Assembly: GCA_016872115.1 (NCBI GenBank)
Contig: VHBC01000010.1
Coordinates: 1-64,000, forward strand
DNA length: 64,000 bases
Source: Sphingomonadales bacterium
Lineage (GTDB): Bacteria > Bacteroidota > Bacteroidia > Flavobacteriales_D > Crocinitomicaceae
Direction of reading: 5' to 3'
Part shown: positions 62,423 to 63,973 of the stretch, piece by piece
How the letters are laid out: each line of letters starts with the position of its first letter
Numbering within the stretch: position 1 is the stretch's first letter
Notes under the pieces: model-generated
What the model was told of the DNA's origin: nothing
The model's database searches: none
What the model saw: the letters and a program-made list of their open reading frames with translations, nothing else
Made by a program: the position numbers and the translations under genes

Positions 62423-63082
62423 ATGAAAAGAGAAATTCGCCTCACGGCAGATGGTTCGCCAACTTTGTATGTCCCTGAGCTAGATGAAACCTATCACTCC
62501 AGGCATGGCAGTGTCCAAGAAGCGCTTCATGTGTTTATTGCCAATGGATTAAAGCCTTTGGCTTCAAAAAACAAATCCATCCAAATATTAGAAGTTGGTT
62601 TCGGAACGGGATTAAATGCTTTTTTAAGTGCGCAGTTTGCTCATGAACATCAGTCCAGTGTCCAATATACCGGAATCGAAGCTTTCCCGGTTGAAGAAGC
62701 CATTTGGCGCCAACTATCTTATTTTCAAAAGCCCGAAGAAAAAGCAATTTACTATGAATTGATGGCGGCTTCTTGGGAAGAACCGCTTGCACTCAACTCC
62801 AATTTTACGCTTACCAAAGTGAAGAACAGCATTCAAGACTGGCAGCCTAAAGCGCTTTTTGATTTGATTTATTTTGATGCTTTTGGGCCAAGAGCACAAG
62901 CCGAGATGTGGAACAAAGCCATTTTTGAAAAATTATTTACAGCGCTCAATAAAGGTGGCGTGCTCGTAACCTACTGCGCCCAAGGGCAGTTCAGACGAGA
63001 TTTAAAAGCAATTGGTTTTGAGGTGCTTTCCTTACCTGGCCCTCCCGGAAAAAGAGAAATGACCCGCGCTTATAAAATTTAA
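62423..63082 (+). CDS. mnmD: tRNA (5-methylaminomethyl-2-thiouridine) methyltransferase MnmD
   Basis: A 219-residue enzyme, the stand-alone MnmC2-like domain that completes the wobble uridine modification mnm5s2U34. It has YHSRHGSVQEALHVFI, the SAM loop ILEVGFGTGLNAFL, and YFDAFGPRAQAEMWN. It lacks the MnmC1 oxidase half, as is usual for MnmD. It starts immediately after the stop of the O-methyltransferase gene. Confidence 0.9.
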   Translation: MKREIRLTADGSPTLYVPELDETYHSRHGSVQEALHVFIANGLKPLASKNKSIQILEVGFGTGLNAFLSAQFAHEHQSSVQYTGIEAFPVEEAIWRQLSYFQKPEEKAIYYELMAASWEEPLALNSNFTLTKVKNSIQDWQPKALFDLIYFDAFGPRAQAEMWNKAIFEKLFTALNKGGVLVTYCAQGQFRRDLKAIGFEVLSLPGPPGKREMTRAYKI

Positions 63083-63104
63083 CAAAAAATTCACACATTG
63101 ATTC

Positions 63105-63134
63105 TTGCACAGACCAAAACTCGCCGTATCTTTG
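63105..63134 (+). promoter_or_regulatory. Consensus promoter of a short non-coding unit
   Basis: TTG (63105-63107), exactly 19 bases, then TATCTTTG (63127-63134). This is the best full match to the Bacteroidota -33/-7 consensus in the window. No coding gene lies downstream on this strand before the terminator at 63193. Confidence 0.75.
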
Positions 63135-63138
63135 CACC

Positions 63139-63234
63139 AAGATTACAGTTCATAGTTGTAGTTTTAGTTTTATAGTTTTAGCATGGTTTAGTAGAAAGAG
63201 GAACAAATAGCGTTTGTTCCTCTTTCTGTTTTTT
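63139..63234 (+). ncRNA. Candidate small RNA
   Basis: About 96 bases between a consensus promoter and a strong terminator, with no ORF beyond a few codons. The 5' half is U-rich with repeated UUUUAG units (63158-63190) and likely single-stranded, and the 3' half is the terminator hairpin, a layout common in small regulatory RNAs. The exact 5' end is inferred from the -7 box. It lies in the gap between convergent mnmD and the Nudix gene. It does not resemble tmRNA, SRP RNA or RNase P by eye. Confidence 0.55.
63193..63234 (+). terminator. Strong Rho-independent terminator
   Basis: A 15-bp perfect stem (63193-63207 with 63213-63227), loop TAGCG, then GTTTTTT. The T run is only on the plus strand. 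It ends the candidate small RNA and any read-through from mnmD. Confidence 0.92.
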
Positions 63235-63244
63235 GGGCCTTGTC

Positions 63245-63853
63245 TTACCCCAATATCATCCGCAACTCATTCAACATCAGAGCCGTAGCGCCCCAAATAA
63301 TCTTTTCATTTAAAATAAAGCAAGGATGTCCCTCGAGCCGTTGGTTGTTGGGGAGTAGGATATCTCTGTTTTGGATATTTTTTTCATCTAGTAAATCAAG
63401 CACCTTGATTGTTTCTACATGGGCCACCTCTCTTGTATTTATTTGTAATATGGGCTCTTGCTCGTGAACAAATACGAAAGGCGTAACGATGAAACCTGAA
63501 ACAGGTATCCAAACTGCGGTGAGTTGTTTGGCCGTAGTGCCAAGTTGTTGCTTGATTCCTAATTCTTCTTCGCTTTCTCTTCTTGCCGTTAGTTCGAGGT
63601 GTTGGTCTGCTGGATCTTTCTTTCCTCCTGGAAAAGCCATTTGCCCGCTGTGTTGTCCTTCGTAGGTGCTGCGCTCAATCAAATAAAAATAACATTGCTC
63701 ATTTTTCTCGAAAAGATGAATGCCCACAGCGGCTTCTTGGGCACTCGCTTTATCGGCTGCTTCAAAAAAACGCCTGTATTTAAGATAGGGTGCGTGGGCC
63801 TGCTCGCCGGGCAGTTCTTTTTGAAGTTGTGTTTGTAGCCAATTCAAGTGCAT
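63245..63853 (-). CDS. Nudix hydrolase, CoA pyrophosphatase type
   Basis: A 202-residue Nudix protein with the box FPGGKKDPADQHLELTARRESEEELG, in which the long GGK...D spacing matches the CoA-specific NudL group, so it probably cleaves CoA or acyl-CoA to phosphopantetheine and 3',5'-ADP. The ATG at 63853 is preferred to the TTG two codons upstream. A near-consensus box GAAATTTG ends three bases before the ATG. Confidence 0.88.
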   Translation of the reverse strand: MHLNWLQTQLQKELPGEQAHAPYLKYRRFFEAADKASAQEAAVGIHLFEKNEQCYFYLIERSTYEGQHSGQMAFPGGKKDPADQHLELTARRESEEELGIKQQLGTTAKQLTAVWIPVSGFIVTPFVFVHEQEPILQINTREVAHVETIKVLDLLDEKNIQNRDILLPNNQRLEGHPCFILNEKIIWGATALMLNELRMILG

Positions 63854-63916
63854 ATGCAAATTTCAAAATTCCATTTTATAAAATTGATTTTTCAATATTT
63901 TTTAATTCATTTATAA

Positions 63917-63973
63917 TTTTTAGGGGGTATTGTTGAAAAAAAGAGTAAAAAAAAGAGAAACACCCCCTAAAAA
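63917..63973. other. 12-bp perfect inverted repeat near the window end
   Basis: TTTTTAGGGGGT (63917-63928) and ACCCCCTAAAAA (63962-63973) are exact reverse complements separated by 33 bases of purine-rich sequence. A plus-strand -7 box TACATTTG follows at 63979. It could be a binding site for a regulator of a gene beyond the window. The T run expected after a terminator stem is absent. Confidence 0.5.

Follow-up and report, generated by a model that had tools for sequence, protein, structure and literature searches.

Of the RNAs described so far, FopS/GibS of Bacteroides thetaiotaomicron are the nearest in kind to the RNA reported here (PMC11697453). The 5' end of FopS is single-stranded and precedes a lone terminator hairpin; the promoter is of the sigma-ABfr type, and according to the authors FopS was deposited in Rfam (PMC11697453). 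Rfp18 of Flavobacterium psychrophilum is likewise a small RNA of flavobacteria that is independent, conserved and strongly structured; its predicted pairing lies in the third stem-loop, with protease targets (PMC9723704). 6S RNA and the Flavo-1 and Bacteroidales-1 motifs of Rfam are also free-standing RNA genes of Bacteroidetes, and each form a single long, closed hairpin that contains a bubble.

The locus examined here lies near the end of a 64-kb stretch of DNA (the window) from a member of the Crocinitomicaceae, where an earlier note had proposed an orphan promoter-terminator unit as a candidate small RNA. The best explanation of the whole, to which we assign a probability of roughly 0.6, is a free-standing non-coding RNA gene of about 96 nt whose product acts in trans through a conserved core. 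That the small RNA family itself is real appears almost certain from its conservation.

Several properties are common to this RNA and FopS/GibS. Both are short intergenic RNAs with an intrinsic terminator and a conserved single-stranded region in a phylum that lacks Hfq, RRM proteins occur in most of the hosts, and some genomes carry several copies. The promoter is of the same type as that of FopS, and UUCAUAG and UUAG elements are shared with the R1' consensus (PMC11697453). Unlike FopS/GibS, the Crocinitomicaceae RNA has an extra, covarying 5' hairpin before the linker, in place of the single-stranded 5' end of FopS; its core is different and longer, and there is usually one copy per genome. 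In contrast to 6S RNA, Flavo-1 and Bacteroidales-1, none of which was matched in the Rfam scans, it consists of two short hairpins joined by a single-stranded linker. Rfp18 was set apart by its description. No Rfam 15 family reached its gathering score for the small RNA, and permissive scans also yielded no plausible family; in the window, the permissive match that ranks highest, to Plastid-psbA-2 (32 of 55.8 bits), is limited to the terminator hairpin. No description of this RNA was found in the open-access literature, subscription papers being mostly outside the search. It is a new RNA family of a kind that is already known.

Promoter, fold and terminator in the window

The earlier note had claimed a promoter consisting of TTG, 19 bases and TATCTTTG, and exactly this is present at 63105-63134. 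The arrangement TTG-N19-TAnnTTTG occurs once in the 64 kb, both strands counted. Since TTG at other spacings ahead of TAnnTTTG occurs 0-5 times each in the window, the promoter of this one locus is not beyond chance. The consensus of the promoter scanner is of the E. coli type and inapplicable to this host. The transcript is predicted from the promoter to start near 63139.

A 15-bp terminator within 100 bases, without an ORF, had also been claimed and was located at 63193-63227. The stem is perfect over all 15 bp; next come one G and a run of six T (63229-63234). No ORF of substance was found between the mnmD stop codon and the Nudix stop codon. The fold of 63139-63234 has a free energy of -27.5 kcal/mol (z = -5.7), and 0/200 shuffles were equally low. 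The earlier note further placed repeated UUUUAG units in the 5' half, as a possible single-stranded seed. The region with these units is indeed highly conserved, but a single-stranded 5' half was partly wrong because the 5' hairpin at 63139-63165 had been overlooked; the units belong to the linker, which has a hairpin on either side.

Features of the small RNA locus and its neighbours in the window
Feature	Position	Strand	Remarks
Small RNA gene (candidate)	63139-63234	+	~96 nt, non-coding, absent from Rfam
-33 element TTG	63105-63107	+	19 nt ahead of -7 box
-7 element TATCTTTG	63127-63134	+	TAnnTTTG, Bacteroidetes housekeeping type
5' hairpin AAGAUUACAG-UUCAUAG-UUGUAGUUUU	63139-63165	+	fold and family covariation
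Single-stranded core AGUUUUAUAGUUUUAGCAUGGUUUAG	63166-63191	+	putative contact region; near-identity between genera
Intrinsic terminator	63193-63234	+	stem 63193-63207/63213-63227, loop UAGCG, U-tract 63229-63234
mnmD-like methyltransferase (Methyltransf_30), upstream	62423-63082	+	neighbour only in this genus
Nudix hydrolase (NUDIX), downstream, convergent	63245-63859	-	near the RNA in several, not all, genera

One sequence proves little, and therefore the promoter, the fold, the conservation and the independence from neighbouring genes were decided by comparison between genomes.

Distribution and conservation in the Crocinitomicaceae

Using 63083-63245 as the BLAST query, the unit was found in about 36 of 60 genomes of the same genus, with matches that typically span the -7 box to the terminator. 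The Nudix gene could be located in 13 genomes of the genus without a BLAST match. Two of these (L184, at a contig end, and L189, behind mnmD) carry diverged versions of the RNA with a different terminator. Two others (L178 and L179) are clean losses in which mnmD adjoins Nudix, and the small RNA is thus dispensable. A covariance model built from the genus matched 90/299 genomes of the order, all of them Crocinitomicaceae except for two weak matches without the core (L174 and L175). Strong matches occur in most sampled genera of the family, and a second, family-wide model extends this to further genera, whose members score weakly but are clear. In all, the small RNA recurs in about 20 genera. 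Usually there is one copy per genome, sometimes two to three or more. Genus g39 has several copies per genome, and tandem copies were observed there at L157 2433-2725 (genome G220, two copies) and at G341:C3:169390-169779; those of L157 have diverged cores and may be paralogous small RNAs.

A pattern scan of named genomes returned mainly Crocinitomicaceae and Flavobacteriales titles, Fluviicola among them, plus a few metagenome-assembled genome titles (e.g. Polynucleobacter) that are evidently mislabelled. In a class-wide search with model R2, strong matches were confined to the Crocinitomicaceae. The same search gave 17 weak matches of 37-45 bits in other families, such as G634:C4:245530-245627, which are known by score alone and outnumber the nominal E-value expectation.

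The fold was examined in 49 sequences from many genera. Paired cells made up 95.5% compared with 55.6-61.0% in slid versions, and the covariation score was 0.506 versus 0.200 +/- 0.010 after shuffling (0/500 shuffles as high), in an alignment that had been fitted to the structure and is thereby biased in its favour. Both hairpins covary, with changes on both sides in 20 of 24 pairs. For the 5' hairpin these are 8/8 model pairs, with 93% of cells paired, and for the terminator 12/16, with 97% paired. Entire hairpins have been swapped for others of equal form between genera, which is visible in the raw sequences.

Promoter and hairpins are retained throughout the family. An exact TAnnTTTG stands just upstream of the 5' hairpin in 65/65 loci with a placeable box, a count that leaves out one locus without a matching box and one truncated at a contig end. 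TTG occurs 18-22 nt ahead of this box in 48/65 homologues, most commonly at 19 nt, compared with 3.5% at control offsets. These counts strongly support a housekeeping-type promoter belonging to the small RNA itself.

The linker, GGUUUUAUAGUUUUAGCAUGGUUUAGC, behaves differently from the hairpins. It is nearly invariant between genera while both hairpins turn over; in most family members it is identical or nearly so, and the terminator stem and 5' hairpin change by compensation. Among 30 homologues of the genus the linker is again almost invariant, the terminator loop is variable and the 5' hairpin has paired changes. The earlier note had allowed for conservation confined to the terminator, which would have spoken against a small RNA. 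The opposite was found: no part is more conserved than the linker with its UUUUAG units, and within the genus conservation extends from the -7 box through the terminator, which supports the unit as a small RNA. To judge from these alignments, the RNA is under selection and has a single exposed region in which the sequence itself matters. A middle part kept nearly unchanged amid changing surroundings points to a regulatory RNA that would work at a distance. Of the features generally looked for in a trans-acting sRNA, the following are present: a promoter of its own, an intrinsic terminator, no coding potential, conserved structure and independence from neighbours.

Neighbouring genes

The unit lies 57 nt past the stop codon of mnmD, and its terminator would also serve mnmD read-through. 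It could on this account be a mere terminator region or 3' UTR of mnmD with a coincidental promoter match. The gene order OMT-mnmD-RNA-Nudix is, however, peculiar to the genus of the window. In L013, of the same genus, the unit directly follows the O-methyltransferase gene without mnmD, and in all other genera the RNA is present without mnmD, in many unrelated contexts. With neighbours that change from genus to genus, the RNA cannot be counted as part of mnmD, and derivation from its 3' UTR was rejected. The promoter is retained in all scored loci, and the constraint on linker and 5' hairpin exceeds what a terminator needs, so that we regard this reading as very improbable. Metal-uptake genes are the commonest upstream neighbours in other genera (L137-L176): about 20 of 37 loci outside the genus have a ZIP or ABC-3 permease gene directly ahead of the RNA in the same orientation, and in L146 a DtxR/MntR-type repressor gene and a ZIP gene precede the RNA. 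The RNA might accordingly fine-tune Mn/Zn/Fe uptake or metal-using proteins, a role compatible with the other readings. It is favoured by the two transporter types being unrelated to each other and by the differing downstream genes. The pattern was, however, noticed after the fact, the genus of the window has no metal-uptake neighbour, and by eye no recurring operator is seen in the listed promoters. We consider this role improbable and take the metal-gene neighbourhood as a lead to the physiological role, not as evidence for one.

Two further observations concern the neighbourhood. The upstream neighbours outside the genus include a permease whose C-terminal part resembles DtxR, as judged by eye. 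Close to the end of the window, an inverted repeat (TTTTTAGGGGGT ... ACCCCCTAAAAA, 63917-63973) stands on the upstream side of the Nudix gene and could be a structured leader or the terminator of another transcript.

Putative targets and protein partners of the core

Target searches in the genome of the window were made on stretches covering about 39% of it. In 51 genomes, near-perfect antisense to the core was no more frequent than for the reversed control, and a single near-perfect conserved target of the core was not found. Signal-peptide genes were in apparent excess among the best start-region duplexes of the window's own genome and of G017. The excess fell mostly in codons, was missing from G158, and was seen in part in G062, a genome without the RNA. 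The preference for signal-peptide genes, significant at first sight in the window's own genome, thus failed in control regions and control genomes.

The searches also came upon two to three tandem intergenic RNA-like units of about 150 nt at L280 720-1600 (minus strand), also seen in L256, L264, L270 and L277. In these five related genomes the similar units are closed by a stem (AGGTACAGGAACTTCTTATGCA / TGCATAAGAAGTTGCCTGTG) and contain, further inside, the conserved stretches CTAAAACTATTAAACTCTTATC and CTTCTCCAAGCAG. No Rfam family was found for them at gathering score, and they may be 6S-like or some other structured RNA. One inner loop can pair with the core over 14/15 nt, the only complementary site to recur. 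It was rejected as the core's partner, the match being most likely due to chance.

Hfq was above the cut-off in 0/120 Crocinitomicaceae genomes, so the RNA was not classed as an Hfq-dependent small RNA. With Hfq absent, an RRM protein is a possible partner. RRM_1 proteins were found in 101/120 genomes of the family, including one in the genome of the window. Genera without RRM form one clade plus g67 in the AlaRS tree, where g33 was scored as lacking RRM though some of its genomes show weak, divergent matches. The linker UUAG is absent in 7/7 RNAs from four RRM-minus genera, and nearly all RNAs from the other genera carry one or two. The correlation, which the tree reduces to about two independent events, suggests that an RRM protein may read the UUAG units of the linker. 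Strict dependence on RRM_1 was rejected, as the RRM-minus genera have homologues with a shortened or altered core. The RNA survives in genera without RRM_1, and the protein therefore cannot be essential.

These results bear on two further readings. The RNA might titrate or scaffold a protein, its UUUAG-type repeats binding an RRM protein or another RNA binder with no pairing to mRNA. Near-invariance over the whole 26-nt single-stranded stretch, the UUAG repeats and their loss, in two phylogenetic contrasts, from the four genera that lack RRM favour this, as does the lack of signal in the target searches. The RNA is, however, retained in genera without RRM_1, the independent contrasts are two only, and the shortening of the core could reflect drift within a single clade; we find protein titration rather unlikely. 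Alternatively, the RNA could be a true member of FopS/GibS, whose UUCAUAG loop pairs with CUAUGAA start contexts of outer-membrane receptor mRNAs, with an RbpB-like modulator. Promoter type, terminator, UUCAUAG and UUAG agree with this and with the R1' consensus (PMC11697453). Likeness to the R1/R1' seed is partial; from member to member, between 7 and 149 of 1000 shuffles do equally well. The best local alignment to R1' is that of the diverged variant L189 (7/1000 shuffles as good), but for the window RNA the similarity does not reach significance (101/1000). UUCAUAG, moreover, lies in a hairpin loop here and is missing in several genera, whereas the 5' end of FopS is single-stranded, and the Rfam scans yielded no FopS match. 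Membership, which we hold to be quite improbable, is not claimed because the sequence similarity is weak and a 5' hairpin has been added. By analogy it is plausible that the Crocinitomicaceae RNA works similarly to FopS/GibS.

On balance we lean towards a trans-acting regulatory RNA whose core contacts mRNA or protein. We infer its transcription, its action in trans, its targets and its partner protein as follows. The RNA would be made from its own housekeeping-type promoter, ended by the intrinsic terminator, and would present the core between the 5' hairpin and the terminator hairpin. The core would then pair with the start regions of several mRNAs, bind an RNA-binding protein, or do both; the protein may be the RRM protein. 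The outcome of these contacts would be an adjustment of translation. A more specific proposal, which we consider unlikely, is that of a family-wide RNA in the Hfq-less Crocinitomicaceae whose core brings mRNA start regions and the RRM protein together on one platform. The core would have co-evolved with RRM, UUAG being lost where RRM was lost, and may be tied to Mn/Zn/Fe uptake.

Regulation by small RNAs without Hfq is poorly understood in Bacteroidota and rests on a few cases from Bacteroides and Flavobacterium. In the Crocinitomicaceae, an aquatic family of the Flavobacteriales, the present RNA offers a sharply defined core together with natural variants that miss parts of it. This small-RNA family lends itself readily to the questions of which protein takes the place of Hfq and how such RNAs pick their targets.
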